Positions 15,779 to 36,447 of a stretch of 64,000 nt of DNA are shown here, piece by piece. The DNA is from Paracoccus subflavus (GTDB taxonomy: Bacteria; Pseudomonadota; Alphaproteobacteria; Rhodobacterales; Rhodobacteraceae). The position numbers and the translations under genes are program-made. Each line of letters starts with the position of its first letter. The stretch's first letter is position 1. Below the pieces are notes generated by a model. It searched no databases and was not told the origin of the DNA. It saw only the letters and a program-made list of their open reading frames with translations. Location: the NCBI RefSeq assembly GCF_004310345.1, contig NZ_SISK01000002.1:186001-250000 (forward strand), in the 5' to 3' direction.

Positions 15779-16987
15779 ATGGCAATCCCCGAGCGGTTCT
15801 CGAACCTGCCGGACTATGCGTTTCCGCGGCTGCGGGCGCTGTTGTCAGGCATCAACCCTGGGTTGAACGACGGCGAATCTCCGGCGGTCCTGACCATCGG
15901 CGAGCCGCGCCATGCCATGCCCGATTTCGTGGCCGGGGTGATGGCCGCACATATCGGCGGATTCGCGAAATATCCGGCGAACGAAGGCACGCCGGGGCTG
16001 CTGGAGGCGGTCAGCGGCTGGCTGTCCGCGCGCTATGGCCTTGACGTGATGCCCGACCGGATCATGGCGCTGAACGGCACGCGCGAGGGGCTGTTCAACG
16101 CGGCCCTGGCGCTGTGTCCTGAACGAAAGAACGGTGCGCGGCCTGTTATCCTGATCCCGAACCCCTTTTATCAGGTCTATGCGGTCGCCGCGGCCGCCCT
16201 GTCCGCCGAACCCGTCTTTGTGCCTGCGACACCCGAAACCGGTAATCTGCCCGATTACGCATCCCTGCCGGCCGCGGTTCTGGACCGGACGGCCATCGCC
16301 TATCTGTGTTCGCCCGCCAATCCGCAAGGGGCGATTGCGGATCGCGATTATCTGGAGCGTTTGATCGCGCTGGCCGACAGGCACGACTTTCTGGTCTTTG
16401 CCGACGAATGTTATTCGGAAATCTGGCGCGACGCGCCACCTCCGGGTGCCTTGGCGGTTGCCACCGACATGGGGCTGGCGGACCGGGTGGTGATCTTCAA
16501 TTCGCTGTCCAAGCGTTCGAACCTGCCGGGCCTGCGATCGGGCTTCGTGGCGGGCAGCCCGGCAAATATCGCCCAGATTCGCCGCCTGCGTGCCTATGCC
16601 GGGGCGCCGCTTTCGCTGCCCTCCCAGGCCGTCAGCGAGGCCGCCTGGCGCGACGAGGCGCATGTGATAGCCAGCCGCGCGCTGTATCAGCAGAAATATG
16701 CGATCGCAGACCGGGTGCTGGGCAACGTGCCCGGATACCGTCCCATTCAAGGCGGGTTCTTTCTGTGGCTGCCCGTGGAGGACGGCGAGGAGGCGGCAAG
16801 GACGCTGTGGGCCCGGGCGGGCATCCAGGTCCTGCCCGGTGCCTATCTTTCGCGCGAGGTGGACGGGTTCAATCCGGGCCGCGGCTTTGTCCGCGTGGCT
16901 CTGGTGGCGGATGCTGCGGAAACCGAAGCGGCGCTGCGACGGCTGCGCGCGGTTCTTTATGACGGAATGACGGACGGGGAAGGTTGA
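15779..16987 (+). CDS. Class I/II PLP-dependent aminotransferase (DapC-like)
   Basis: A 402-residue fold-type I aminotransferase. The PLP lysine is K245 in [16 protein letters not shown]; other family marks are SPANPQG near 178 and FADECYSEI near 207. The sequence style matches the alphaproteobacterial enzymes often named succinyldiaminopimelate aminotransferase (DapC), but aspartate-type aminotransferases are close, so the substrate is not certain. The stop codon lies five bases before the ftsK start, so the two genes probably form an operon. Confidence 0.85.
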
Positions 16988-16992
16988 ACACC

Positions 16993-19575
16993 ATGGCAAG
17001 CTGGCAGGCGAAACACCGCGATCCCCTGTTCGACCAGACCACCCGGGCGGCGCTTGAACGGCGCGGCAAGGAGGGGCTGGGCGCCGGGCTGATCGTGCTG
17101 GGCATCGTGATCGCCCTGATCCTGGGAAGCTGGTCGGCTGACGACCCCAGCTTTCTGTCCGCGACCGACGCCCCCGCGCAGAACAGGCTGGGCAGCTTCG
17201 GGGCCTATATCGCCTCTCCCCTGATGATGATCGCGGGTCTTGGCGCCTGGATTCTGGTGCTGGCATTGCTGGTCTGGGGGCTGCGTTTCATGCTGCACCG
17301 GGGCGAGGACCGGTTCATGCGGGCGCTGTTCACCCCCATCGCGGTGGCGCTCACCTCGGTCTATTGCAGCACGCTAGTGCCGGGCGAAAACTGGGAACAA
17401 AGCTATGGCCTGGGCGGGCATTTCGGCGACATGATCATGGGCGCGATGCTGAACCTGATGCCCGTCAAGGCACAGGTCGGCATCCGCATCGCGGGCCTGA
17501 TCGTGGCTTTGGGCACCGTGGTGATGACCGCATTCGTGCTGGGCTTCGAGCGCGGAGAGCTGCGCATCCTGTGGCGGCGCTTTGTCACGGGGCTGCTGAC
17601 GGCGCGCGGTCTGGCCGTAAAGGCCACGGGCCGCGGTGTCGGAGCCTCGGCGGCATTGCGGTCGCGGCTGTCCGCGCGCCGAGACACAAGGATCGCCCCC
17701 GAGACGGTTCCGCAGCCGACCGTGACCGCCCGCCGCAAGCCTGCGATGCCTGTCTTTGAACTGGAAGAGGACCTGCCCGAACCCGAACTGATCGAACGGG
17801 ACGCCGATTACGACGGCGGCGCCCCCTCGGCCGAGGAGGTCAGCGGCCGTATCAGCGACGCGATCCGCACCCGTTCGGGCAAGCCCTCGGTGCTGGCCGC
17901 CGTAGCCGCCCGGCTGTCGCGCGAAGGCGTGCACCCGCCGGCGCCCGTCCCGTCGCAAACCCCTGCGCCGCAGGACGGTTCTGCGACGCTGTCTTTGAAC
18001 AAGCCGACCCCTCTGCCGCGCCACGCGCAAGACGCCCCCCTGGCTTTGCCCCAGGAGGATGACCCGGTCCGCTACGAACGTCCGCCGCTGGCCCTGCTGA
18101 CGGCGCCCTCGGCCAGCGACAAGCCCCCGGTATCCGAGGAGGCGCTGACCGAGAATGCCCGGTTGCTGGAGGCGGTGCTGGACGATTATGGCGTCAAGGG
18201 CCAGATCACCGAGGTTCGTCCCGGTCCGGTCGTGACGCTCTATGAACTGGAACCGGCGCCGGGCCTCAAGGCCAGCCGCGTGATCGGCCTGTCCGACGAC
18301 ATCGCGCGATCCATGTCGGCGTTGTCCGCGCGCGTGTCCACCGTGCCGGGCCGCACCGTGATCGGGATCGAACTGCCCAACGCCCGGCGCGAAAAGGTCC
18401 TGCTGCGCGAGATCCTGGCCTCCCGCGCCTTTGGCGATGGCACCCAGCCGCTGCCCTTGGCGCTGGGCAAGGACATCGGCGGCGATCCGGTCGTGGCGAA
18501 CCTGGCCAAGATGCCGCACCTGCTGATCGCGGGCACCACCGGGTCGGGCAAGTCGGTTGCGATCAACACCATGATCCTGTCGCTGCTCTACAAGCTGACG
18601 CCCGACGAATGCCGGCTGATCATGATCGACCCCAAGATGCTGGAACTGTCGGTCTATGACGGCATCCCGCACCTGCTGTCCCCCGTCGTCACCGATCCCA
18701 AAAAGGCCGTGGTCGCCCTGAAATGGGTCGTGTCGGAAATGGAGGAGCGGTACCGCAAGATGTCCAAGATGGGGGTGCGCAACATCGAGGGCTATAACAC
18801 CCGCGTCCGCGAGGCGCTGTCCAAGAACGAGATGTTCAAGCGCACCGTCCAGACCGGCTTTGACGAGGATACCGGAGAGCCGGTGTTCGAGACCGAGGAG
18901 TTCAAGCCCGAGACCTTTCCCTATATCGTCGTGATCGTCGATGAAATGGCCGACCTGATGATGGTCGCGGGCAAGGAAATCGAGGCCTGCATCCAGCGTC
19001 TGGCGCAGATGGCGCGCGCGTCGGGCATCCACCTGATCATGGCGACGCAGCGGCCCTCGGTCGATGTGATCACCGGCACCATCAAGGCGAACTTCCCGAC
19101 CCGGATCAGCTTTCAGGTCACGTCCAAGATCGACAGCCGCACCATCCTGGGCGAACAGGGGGCCGAACAACTGCTGGGCCAGGGCGACATGCTGTACATG
19201 GGCAACGGCGCGCGGATCACCCGCATCCACGGCCCCTTCGTCAGCGACGAGGAGGTCGAGGAGGTCGTGACGCATCTGAAATCCTTCGGGCCCCCGTCCT
19301 ACAAGTCGGGCGTGGTCGAGGGGGTCGAGGATGAAAAGGCAGACGACATCGACGCGATCCTTGGCCTTGGCGGCGACGGCAGCGACGATGCCCTGTACGA
19401 TCAGGCGGTGATGATCGTGGCCAAGGACCGCAAGTGTTCCACCAGCTATATCCAGCGGAAGCTGGCCATCGGCTACAACAAGGCCGCACGCCTGGTCGAG
19501 CAGATGGAAGAGCAGGGGGTCGTCAGCACCGCGAACCACGTGGGCAAGCGCGAGGTGCTGGTGCCCGAGGTGTGA
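16993..19575 (+). CDS. ftsK: DNA translocase FtsK
   Basis: Septal DNA pump that clears and resolves chromosomes at division. 860 residues. Four membrane helices lie in the first 180 residues, followed by a Pro-rich linker to about 360, the alpha/beta motor with Walker A GTTGSGKS near 515 and Walker [11 protein letters not shown] near 647, and a C-terminal winged-helix gamma domain ([18 protein letters not shown]) that reads KOPS sites. The ATG at 16993 has GAAGG nine bases upstream and is preferred to TTG at 16984. The linker is short compared with E. coli, as usual in this group. An AT-rich foreign-looking gene begins eight bases after the stop. Confidence 0.97.
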
Positions 19576-19582
19576 GGTTAGT

Positions 19583-19936
19583 ATGTCTGACGATAAAGAG
19601 GAGAGGCAATGGATTGCATCAATGGAAGGTCGTGAAATTGCCGTCTCTAATCAACAGTTAGATGCTTTTCGGCAGTTTTACTTGGAGAAGGAGATTTCAT
19701 CTCGCGTTTCCGATTTGATTATTCTTGATATGTGTGTTTTAAACATGATATCCGGAATTGCTCCCCAAGAAGTGCTGGCGTCCATGAAGAGCTTAGAGGA
19801 AGACGAACTATCTGGAAACACAAAAGCAGCAACGCAATTTAAAAATTCACCATTAAAGGGCCTGTGGCATAAGCACTATTTCTCCGCTCGATTTGTTCCT
19901 CGAAATATCCGTCTGGCATTGGGAAAAACGGATTAG
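19583..19936 (+). CDS. Unknown protein, N-terminal part of a split gene
   Basis: A 117-residue protein with codon use unlike its neighbours. The ATG has GAGG five bases upstream, a site that overlaps the ftsK stop codon, so it would be translated from ftsK readthrough transcript. Notable stretches are LIILDMCVLNMISGIAPQEV and LKGLWHKHYFSARFVPRNIR. The frame stops at 19936, three codons after a G-GGA-AAA run. In the -1 frame the sequence continues GKNGLERMVQEIF and runs on into the next entry, so this is probably the first half of a protein of about 210 residues. I do not recognise a function. Not a known toxin or antitoxin pattern. Confidence 0.6.
   Translation: MSDDKEERQWIASMEGREIAVSNQQLDAFRQFYLEKEISSRVSDLIILDMCVLNMISGIAPQEVLASMKSLEEDELSGNTKAATQFKNSPLKGLWHKHYFSARFVPRNIRLALGKTD
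19921..19928 (+). other. Probable -1 frameshift site joining the two halves of the AT-rich gene
   Basis: The frame of the first half reads TTG GGA AAA ACG GAT TAG. Slipping back one base at G-GGA-AAA gives GGG AAA AAC GGA TTA GAA and enters the second half without a stop. The heptamer has the X-XXY-YYZ form of a slippery site, but I see no strong hairpin just downstream, so a one-base deletion in the A run or a sequencing error is at least as likely. Confidence 0.5.
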
Positions 19937-19941
19937 AACGC

Positions 19942-20226
19942 ATGGTACAAGAGATTTTTGATCCATCGCAGCCGGTAATTACTAAAGAAATGATAGAAAA
20001 ACTGGCTTACCGGATTAGCCATGAACCTATCCAGAAAAGAGCAGAAGAAAAAAAAATCACAGGAGAATGGATAATTTTTGCAAAGCATTGTAGTAGGAAT
20101 TATTATCTTTGTCTCGGCACACACGAATCGGGCGATCAGTATATTTTTGATCGCATTATGCAGTATTGCACCAGATGTTTTCCAGATCTCCCGGCATGGA
20201 TCGCGGCAGCATCCATGAAATCCTGA
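19942..20226 (+). CDS. Unknown protein, C-terminal part of a split gene
   Basis: A 94-residue frame starting at an internal ATG; no Shine-Dalgarno sequence precedes it, and its reading frame is open back to 19873, overlapping the previous entry. Marked stretches are ITGEWIIFAKHCSRNYYLCL and GDQYIFDRIMQYCTRCFPDL. With the preceding half it reads as one continuous protein across a -1 shift. I believe from memory that such halves occur together in single proteins of unknown function, but could not check this. If unexpressed, the whole region is a recent pseudogene. Confidence 0.5.
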   Translation: MVQEIFDPSQPVITKEMIEKLAYRISHEPIQKRAEEKKITGEWIIFAKHCSRNYYLCLGTHESGDQYIFDRIMQYCTRCFPDLPAWIAAASMKS

Positions 20227-20297
20227 GATATGACGGTTAGTTTCGACAGGGTTGATTGCTGGAAATCTGTTAAGTCAATCTATATGATTTCATCACA

Positions 20298-20975
20298 ATG
20301 ACCCTCTGGCATATCCACCTTCTGAACGCCCGCCACGCCCTGACGCCTGTCCTGTCCGAAGCCCGGCAGGCCAGCCGGGACGCGGTTGCCCGTGCCTCGG
20401 ACCATGCCGCCTTGCCCGATTTCGATCTCGTCATCCGCGCGCATCATGACCGGTCCGCCGACGGCGCGATCCAGGGACATTCCCCGGCGCCCGGCGTGAT
20501 CGAGGTCGCAGTGACCCCCGACCGCTTCGATCCCACCGCATTCACCCGTGCGCTGGTCCGGCAGATGGCGCATCTGATCCGCCAGGACGGACCGGGCTAT
20601 GGCAGGTCGCTGGGCGAGGTTCTGGTCAGCGAGGGGCTGGCCGGGCATTTTCTGGTGCAGGTCACGGGCGGCGGGCCTGACGCCGTCGATACCGTCAGGC
20701 CCGCGCAGGGGGCGATGCGGCAGGCCATGAACGAATGGGCGCGGCGCGATTACGACCACCCCCGGTGGTTCGGGGGCAAGGGGGATCTTCGCCGGGGAAC
20801 GGGGACCGGGATCGGTCATCGCATCGTTGCCGACCATCTGGCCAATCATCCGGGCGACACCGCGGCCGGACTGCTGACCGCACCGGCCGAGCCGTTCCGC
20901 CAGAACCTGCGTCGCCTCGCCGCCGACGCCCAGGGCGAGTCGCCGGACGAGGCCGCAGCGGACTCAGAAGGCTGA
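20298..20975 (+). CDS. DUF2268-type putative Zn-protease homologue with degenerate active site
   Basis: A 225-residue protein. The stretch ending in GPGYGRSLGEVLVSEGLAGHF matches DUF2268 (predicted Zn-dependent proteases), where it follows an HExxH motif. Here the HExxH position reads RQMAH (residues 88-92): the first histidine and the catalytic glutamate are lost, while the last histidine (H92) and the later glutamate (E112) remain. It is therefore probably not a zinc protease, unless the alignment is off. It lies directly after the AT-rich island and convergent with the rhomboid gene. Confidence 0.65.
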   Translation: MTLWHIHLLNARHALTPVLSEARQASRDAVARASDHAALPDFDLVIRAHHDRSADGAIQGHSPAPGVIEVAVTPDRFDPTAFTRALVRQMAHLIRQDGPGYGRSLGEVLVSEGLAGHFLVQVTGGGPDAVDTVRPAQGAMRQAMNEWARRDYDHPRWFGGKGDLRRGTGTGIGHRIVADHLANHPGDTAAGLLTAPAEPFRQNLRRLAADAQGESPDEAAADSEG

Positions 20976-35642: not shown

Positions 35643-36347
35643 TCAGGTTGTCCGGGGCTGCCGGGACGGCAGGCCGGCCGCATAACCAACCATCAGAGAC
35701 AGAAAAATCATTTCGCCACCGTCTTCCAGAATGGCCATCAGGTCTTCCAACCGTGTTGCTCCTGGCGTGTAGGTATGCAGAAAGTCGATCACGACCCCGC
35801 AGAATATCATCCCTCCGAACAGCAGCAAAAGGGGAACCATCTGACTCCGGGCAGAGGGCGACGAATGTTTCCAGCCGTAAGCGAATGCCAGGACGATTAT
35901 GATGCCCTCCATGGCCATGAACATTATTTCGCCAATCCCCAAGGGCAACTCAGGGAACAGCGAGGGGGCAATCACATCACCGAAATATTCATGCAATTGA
36001 AGGCTGTCATCCAGAAGTGCTAGCAGGCCCAGAAGGGCGATCCCAAGAAAGACAGGCTGTTTCCGTCTGCTATTCAAGGCCAATGCTATGCCGATCAGGA
36101 ACAGCCATTTCACATAATTTGTCGTCTCGCCGATACCCCAGTCGCGATCAATCCGCAAAGCGTTGGGGGATTTGCCAATCACTCCTGCAACCGTAGCAAC
36201 GCCAACGCCGACATGCACCAAGATCAGCAGGACATCGACCAGCAGCAGTCCCCGCGTCACGCGCCGATCAAAGATGCCAAGGACGGCAGAAAGGGAAAAA
36301 CTCCACCTTTTGTCGGCCACCGCAGCGATAGTAGTTCCATTTTTCAT
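35643..36347 (-). CDS. Unknown integral membrane protein, AT-richer than neighbours
   Basis: A 234-residue protein with about six predicted membrane helices and no family I can name. Charged residues occur within or at the ends of helices: LLDDSLQLHEYFGD and AILEDGGEMIFLSLMVG. Such DD-x5-HE and E-D-G-x-E patterns recur, in my memory, in uncharacterised bacterial membrane proteins and could bind a metal, which is speculation. The ATG at 36347 has AAGG about ten bases upstream; GTG at 36356 is an alternative. Composition is lower in G+C than its surroundings (26 of 60 bases from 36061), suggesting transfer. Confidence 0.7.
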   Translation of the reverse strand: MKNGTTIAAVADKRWSFSLSAVLGIFDRRVTRGLLLVDVLLILVHVGVGVATVAGVIGKSPNALRIDRDWGIGETTNYVKWLFLIGIALALNSRRKQPVFLGIALLGLLALLDDSLQLHEYFGDVIAPSLFPELPLGIGEIMFMAMEGIIIVLAFAYGWKHSSPSARSQMVPLLLLFGGMIFCGVVIDFLHTYTPGATRLEDLMAILEDGGEMIFLSLMVGYAAGLPSRQPRTT

Positions 36348-36447
36348 ACATCGCACCCCTTAAGTTACAAAACTGTTACACAGGATGCAGGAACAAGCAA
36401 TCAGCAGTATTTCTGTCGTTGTGAAATCACCCGATAACTAGGCATGC

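Follow-up and report, generated by a model that had tools for sequence, protein, structure and literature searches.

Between ftsK and a DUF2268 gene of Paracoccus subflavus lies a G+C-poor island that probably represents a horizontally acquired, frame-broken gene from a family of RelE/YafQ-type proteins with BECR fold, which occur as lone genes and whose intact members would most likely be RNases of the RelE kind. The gene was found in a window of 64,000 nucleotides, i.e., the whole stretch of DNA that was analysed (contig NZ_SISK01000002.1, positions 186,001 to 250,000) and to which all coordinates below refer. In the explanation that we favor, a single gene (19583-20226) would have been inserted between ftsK and the DUF2268 gene, at a site that received other insertions in relatives, and would later have lost its frame by one base at a run of G and A. 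Intact members would be built from a RelE/YafQ-type BECR core opened by a helical insertion and, judging from their fold and residues, may act as RNases of the RelE kind that halt translation upon some trigger. Restraint without an adjacent partner could come from their own insertion and end helices, from low expression, or from a partner encoded elsewhere, and each intact gene would be carried alone, as cargo on plasmids, prophages, and islands.

The G+C content of the island (19576-20297) is 41.0% compared with 66.0% across the whole window, and no other 721-base stretch of the window, sampled every 50 bases, has a lower value. The original prediction had pointed out the drop directly behind ftsK, though its figure of 37-40% was slightly low. 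The locus comprises the following features:

16984-19575, forward strand: ftsK, the upstream gene (list of open reading frames; name from the original prediction and our own reading of the sequence)
19574-19578, forward strand: GAGGT, a putative Shine-Dalgarno-like site overlapping the ftsK stop codon (read in the sequence)
19583-19936, forward strand: first frame, 117 amino acids, ATG start, N-terminal half of the family protein (list of open reading frames)
19850-19879, forward strand: conserved PLKGLWHKHY, aligning to HPL-x-G-x-W of YafQ and followed by the insertion (alignments)
19880-20055, forward strand: predicted helical insertion of about 58 residues within the toxin-like core, with approximate borders (L026 model and alignments)
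19921-19928, forward strand: GGGAAAAA run, site of the -1 lesion that breaks the frame (sequence, joined reading, and relatives)
19942-20226, forward strand: second frame, 94 amino acids as listed from its first ATG, C-terminal half (list of open reading frames)
20059-20124, forward strand: conserved TGEWIIFAKH-x3-NYYLCLGTH, in which E162 and H181 align with D67 and H87 of YafQ (alignments)
20298-20975, forward strand: DUF2268 gene (predicted Zn protease), the right border of the insertion site (Pfam PF10026, E 6.2e-12)

Both frames that had been marked from the bare sequence are present in the list of open reading frames, with a G+C content of 42.1% (19583-19936) and 40.4% (19942-20226). Base shuffles of the island contained a same-strand open frame of at least 117 codons in 15 of 2000 cases and of at least 94 codons in 114 of 2000, and these counts, but mainly the family match across the junction described below, show that the frames exceed chance. 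The first frame encodes residues 1-115 of the joined protein and ends in TAG (19934-19936) right after the break; the second open frame extends upstream of its ATG (19942) as far as the junction. A single -1 step at G-GGA-AAA (19921-19927) fuses them into a protein of 214 residues, in line with the ca. 210 residues foreseen, and GAGGT (19574-19578) indeed lies across the ftsK stop codon (TGA, 19573-19575) as proposed for a ribosome binding site, with four bases separating it from the ATG at 19583. Five promoter-like sites were counted at the island compared with 1.2 expected, none of them preceding 19583, and no terminator-like site of the island's own was found.

The joined protein belongs to a family recorded as PHROG 33791, without functional annotation, whose profile matches residues 36-203 and spans the junction (E 3.7e-22). 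The same profile matches all 51 members scanned, i.e., the intact or nearly intact proteins of the alignment to which all conservation counts apply and from which broken copies, the window's own protein, and most near-duplicates were left out. Intact members have about 180-240 residues and share a nearly invariant set consisting of H91, K92, H93, E158, W159, N169, Y171, and H177 (numbered as in L026, a member from a gammaproteobacterial MAG). Neither the window protein as joined nor its halves matched any Pfam model, the window protein had no NCBIfam match, and the best PADLOC match of the joined protein was weak (0.037). Across the 51 members, the most common weak Pfam match was SMI1_KNR4 (three members, best E 0.011), accompanied by weak PADLOC matches to HEase in two members (best 0.0038) and CARF_RelE in one (0.01) and by a weak NCBIfam match to slr1658 in two (0.095). 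No member of the 51 significantly matched a known anti-phage defense model of PADLOC, the weak matches being common to at most two. No family of the Pfam RelE clan was among the 25 of 27 weak families listed for the 51 whole members or matched by ten spliced members from which the insertion had been removed, and the YafQ family PF15738 was matched neither by the window protein nor by the spliced members, nor was it among the families listed for the 51. Sequence searches of solved structures returned no relative at E up to 10. Literature searches on the PHROG 33791 number, on a lone RelE-type family, on a helical insertion in the RelE fold, and on an insertion site at Paracoccus ftsK, with subscription papers mostly outside their scope, found nothing clearly relevant.

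An intact member is matched in one frame by 81 of 87 loci, a comparison that includes the window and near-duplicates and in which three single-frame loci have short coverage. When the joined protein was compared with its homologues, relatives accordingly covered both halves in one frame and not as separate proteins, as the suggestion of a broken or decaying gene would have it. Two frames are needed at the remaining six loci, i.e., the window and L023, L028, L071, L085, and L089; each of the latter five breaks at a place other than the window's site, and L023 covers only the last ca. 40% of the family protein. Early stops are found in two Rhizobium copies (L016 and L017) and a Halomonas copy (L069). 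Since other members show such frame breaks or early stops, decay has occurred repeatedly within the family. The homologous codons were further read in 13 hand-chosen relatives, in all of which the frame is continuous and the heptamer G-GGA-AAA absent. Single-frame reading of relatives covered 54 of 58 loci, with the other four having no match to the motif pattern. The first frame is 36-45% identical to its five nearest relatives over the N-terminal half, and the second is 39-54% identical to its six nearest over the C-terminal half. Of 25 positions that at least 85% of the 51 members conserve, the joined protein retains 24, so the window gene has lost only its frame, and the break divides the conserved residue set of the family between the two pieces. 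Given the continuous frame in 13/13 relatives and the different location of the other breaks, we interpret the locus as a single gene with a broken frame (or an error of base calling) and not as a case of programmed frameshifting. Barring such an error, the window copy is most likely a recent pseudogene that lost one base at the G/A run and is inactive, carrying the full conserved set on neither piece.

An error of base calling or assembly in the homopolymer, which would leave the gene intact and expressed from behind ftsK, strikes us as rather unlikely. A single lesion located in a G/A run of a draft genome of 25 contigs, with family motifs and nearly all strongly conserved positions preserved on both halves, would be expected under this scenario, but the run is short (GGG followed by five A) and the frame breaks and early stops of other members make decay nothing unusual here. 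Much less probable still is a controlled or two-piece protein produced by a programmed -1 shift or by reinitiation of translation at the 19942 ATG. Slippery sites follow the pattern X-XXY-YYZ, to which G-GGA-AAA conforms, and the downstream RNA is slightly more stable than shuffles (z -1.84, with 10 of 200 equally stable). Moreover, the second ATG lies just 5 bases past the first stop codon, and the break falls in the insertion where the L026 model has a loop between two predicted helices. However, the relatives need no frameshift at this site because their frame is continuous there, and the other two-frame loci among the 87 are broken at different positions. The idea of a programmed -1 gene with a conserved slippery site read in two frames, one of the options in the original prediction, was not supported, given the lack of the heptamer in 13/13 relatives. 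Hardly any credence can be given to two separate small genes that are each complete: both halves are open frames with an ATG of their own, but relatives span them in a single frame, neither half alone has a Pfam match, and the match to PHROG 33791 bridges the junction.

Judged by its distribution and composition, the window gene, here regarded as a single broken gene, is a horizontal acquisition, as the original prediction had held. The family was detected in two of 125 genomes of the genus, i.e., the window's own and G087 (71% complete), and in one of 385 genomes of a class-wide sample, the window's. The copy in G087 is a 41-residue C-terminal remnant (L015, 1498-1635) near a gene that we take to be atpF from its sequence; it constitutes a second relic at another housekeeping site in the same genus. 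Among mobile elements, tblastn of the joined protein found relatives in two of 50,697 phage records and ten of 72,556 plasmid records, and pattern scans retrieved 12 and then 31 viral loci (overlapping sets) as well as 48 loci in bacterial genomes. At 48 of 50 loci, the family gene has a lower G+C content than the flanking DNA, with a mean difference of 7.9 points, in a comparison from which 17 of 67 loci had been excluded as near-identical, broken, or viral.

Phylogenetic analysis of 52 rows placed the window with the gammaproteobacterial L026 and with Stappia L027 (support 96/85), and this trio is nested in a set of eight rows (95/86) that includes Nitrosomonas, Gilvimarinus, Thalassolituus, Ancylobacter, and a viral contig. 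Elsewhere in the tree, a Nitrospira member is paired with a viral contig (100/98), and a Paraburkholderia member is joined by three acidobacterial members (98/82). Phylum labels change four times on the tree, which is no proof of transfer in itself, compared with a mean of 7.0 for shuffled labels (none of 200 shuffles as low). Because the labels are more clustered than in the shuffles, exchange between phyla does not seem to be rampant.

The region behind ftsK was compared across the genus, as the original prediction had recommended, and turned out to be a variable gap that holds different single-gene insertions. The end of ftsK (its last 99 codons) is present in 124 of 125 genomes and the DUF2268 gene in 83, and both are on the same contig and strand in 75 of these 83. 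Two of the 75 pairs are more than 200 kb apart, leaving 73 neighboring pairs with gaps of up to 47 bases (39 pairs), 73-412 bases (15 pairs), or 675-1836 bases (19 pairs, among them the window with 722). The 17 larger gaps other than those of the window and G094 contain several kinds of genes, some of which are common to two genomes, and GIY-YIG-like genes are among the contents of the gap. Pfam analysis of seven of these 17 insertions identified GmrSD_N, Fic, MUG113/T5orf172, GNAT, glycosyltransferase 2, and DUF1275, with an IrrE-like match below the cut-off for the seventh. In view of these varied insertions, the ftsK gap is a site that readily accepts single cargo genes in the genus, and some of this cargo presumably belongs to kinds often linked to defense. 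Searching the island ends for a target-site duplication revealed only short or imperfect repeats, none of which frames the island.

That the family has the fold of the RelE/ParE superfamily (BECR) is well supported by structure predictions. An AlphaFold model of L026, which is 48% identical to the joined window protein, was built with the 51 aligned members and reached a pLDDT of 96. Among its VIA-align matches, which were drawn from Foldseek candidates, rows 1-12 are all RelE/YoeB/YafQ/HigB toxins (Z 8.2 to 4.9), headed by YafQ 4mmj (Z 8.2, rmsd 2.5, 85 of 90 residues) and followed by an unrelated structure at Z 3.9. Foldseek itself gave no significant match (best E 0.5), with unrelated folds leading and YoeB at rank 26, so that Foldseek on this model alone would have missed the RelE fold. 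Since a best VIA-align Z of 7-8 may arise by chance, we also modeled the distant member L067, which is 32% identical to L026 and has an insertion of just 37 residues (pLDDT 86.9, falling below 50 at residues 63-65 and 69-82). The best 50 VIA-align rows listed for this model all belong to the RelE/ParE superfamily by title, with YafQ as the best match (Z 9.4, rmsd 2.9-3.0, 89 of 90 residues), and the first 12 Foldseek ranks are likewise taken up by the RelE class, with a probability of 0.77-0.98 and non-significant E values of 0.09-0.32 (best 0.094). The aligned region of Cami1 (8phj, 8phb), a CRISPR-linked effector with a RelE domain, fits the L067 model as well (Z 6.3-6.7), but its chains have ca. 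380 residues with other domains that are absent from this family. A search of the viral models in BFVD found nothing significant.

Across members, the core is split by an insertion of 37-69 residues, which together with extra terminal helices distinguishes the family from YafQ (PF15738; E. coli 4mmj and 4mmg), the closest known system in terms of the fold predicted for the core (Z 8.2 and 9.4 for the two models). Comparison by hhalign was made with the spliced family profile alone, i.e., with the insertion omitted, and aligned 63 columns with a YafQ profile of 31 sequences at a score of 21.0, compared with a mean of 11.5 (sd 2.5, highest 20.7) for column shuffles, none of 200 being as high; the reported probability is just 9% (P 0.0036). 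Against YoeB, the score was equalled by six of 200 shuffles. The YafQ alignment places PLKGLW with HPLKGEW, GEW with PDW, and TH with TH, so that the PL-x-G-x-W motif, the pair of an acidic residue and W, and the final TH share their register with YafQ, the same as implied by the fold. Active-site residues of YafQ are H50, H63, D67, R83, H87, and F91 according to the accessible parts of two reports (PMC6529426, PMC7584586), and changing D67 or H87 to alanine abolishes toxin activity in the accessible part of the former (PMC6529426). In this weak alignment, the family has an equivalent of D67 (as E) and of H87 but none of H50, H63, R83, or F91. The family further differs from YafQ by lacking a recurring antitoxin and any Pfam match. 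With YoeB, RelE, and HigB it has the superfamily fold in common, but the sequence profiles are barely related and, again unlike these toxins, it has no recurring paired partner.

As far as the accessible text of a superfamily review goes, 13 Pfam families of BECR-fold toxins were covered, solitary toxins were removed, and many multidomain BECR-fold proteins without an identifiable antitoxin were omitted (PMC11980606). The present family shares the RelE/ParE superfamily with these 13, but none of them is among its listed Pfam matches, and it would escape a survey that, by this text, begins from Pfam families and requires an antitoxin (PMC11980606).

No recurring antitoxin-like neighbor was found among frames of at least 60 residues when the surroundings of 75 loci (near-duplicates included) were clustered, a procedure that very small or varied partners could escape. 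Similarly, Pfam analysis of 88 neighbor proteins, a subset of 195, detected no family in more than two of them and 82 families in total, 57 of which occurred once each. What did recur in the 75 loci were phage genes, present as a group near as many as nine loci and taken by us to be lambda-type tail genes, a resolvase-type recombinase near four loci (L018, L020, L022, and L026), an ABC-type ATPase near four, and other gene sets common to near-identical loci. The 25 of 82 neighbor families listed include AbiEii, AbiJ, RhuM, a DarT1-linked NADAR antitoxin, nSTAND3, and resolvase, and Mrr_cat was present in two of the 88 proteins scanned. Some members lie within phage morphogenesis genes, and some of those on plasmids are near toxin-antitoxin or restriction genes, while others are not; L022 directly follows an annotated RelB-YafQ pair. 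The proposal of a defense or selfish element fits the predicted RelE-type fold and the plasmid, prophage, or defense-gene surroundings of some relatives. What the analysis establishes is the frame break, the foreign origin, the family, the predicted fold, and the lack of a recurring partner; RNase activity, self-restraint, and a defense or selfish role of intact members, as well as the inactivity of the window copy, are inferred.

Our preferred reading of intact members as RNases competes with a less likely but sizable alternative in which they have the RelE/ParE fold without being RNases and are, e.g., gyrase-inhibitor-like, binding, or regulatory proteins such as a phage moron. ParE proteins have the RelE fold without being RNases, several ParE structures are among the listed rows of the L067 model, and some members are located in prophage tail or morphogenesis regions. 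Moreover, just two of the six residues in the YafQ active site are matched in the family, though in a weak register. What speaks for RNases is that the near-invariant H91, K92, H93, E158, N169, Y171, and H177 (L026) resemble an active site and not a bare scaffold, and that the catalytic residues of the RNases are missing from ParE according to the accessible text of the superfamily review (PMC11980606). Building on the RNase reading, we tentatively envision, as a speculation that is more likely wrong than right, that PHROG 33791 comprises undescribed one-gene RelE-type toxins that can do without an antitoxin because their helical insertion and end helices shut the active site until it is opened by a trigger, e.g., infection by a phage, and that spread singly as defense or addiction genes and are purged by frame loss, as in this window.

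Few bacterial toxins have been studied as much as those of the RelE type. The family described here is widely scattered yet sparse and combines their predicted fold with conserved residues of its own, an insertion within the core, and the lack of a partner that recurs. Toxicity, RNA cleavage, and protection from phages are directly testable with intact members from harmless hosts. The window copy itself, most likely an ordinary pseudogene, is chiefly of value as a pointer to this family and to the variable site behind ftsK.

Several minor observations were made along the way. Five viral contigs (L009, L010, L011, L012, and L072) have tail-region genes in common with a Pseudomonas crudilactis locus and, in the manner of a phage moron, a family member alongside these genes. 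The relic L023 (4066-4301), on a Ti plasmid of Agrobacterium, closely precedes genes for a macro-domain protein and DarT and has no listed gene, the gene table of this plasmid being incomplete. Elsewhere in the window, around 35643-36356, the second G+C-poor patch (ca. 52% at its lowest) overlaps an open frame on the minus strand whose 237-residue product resembles a membrane protein.
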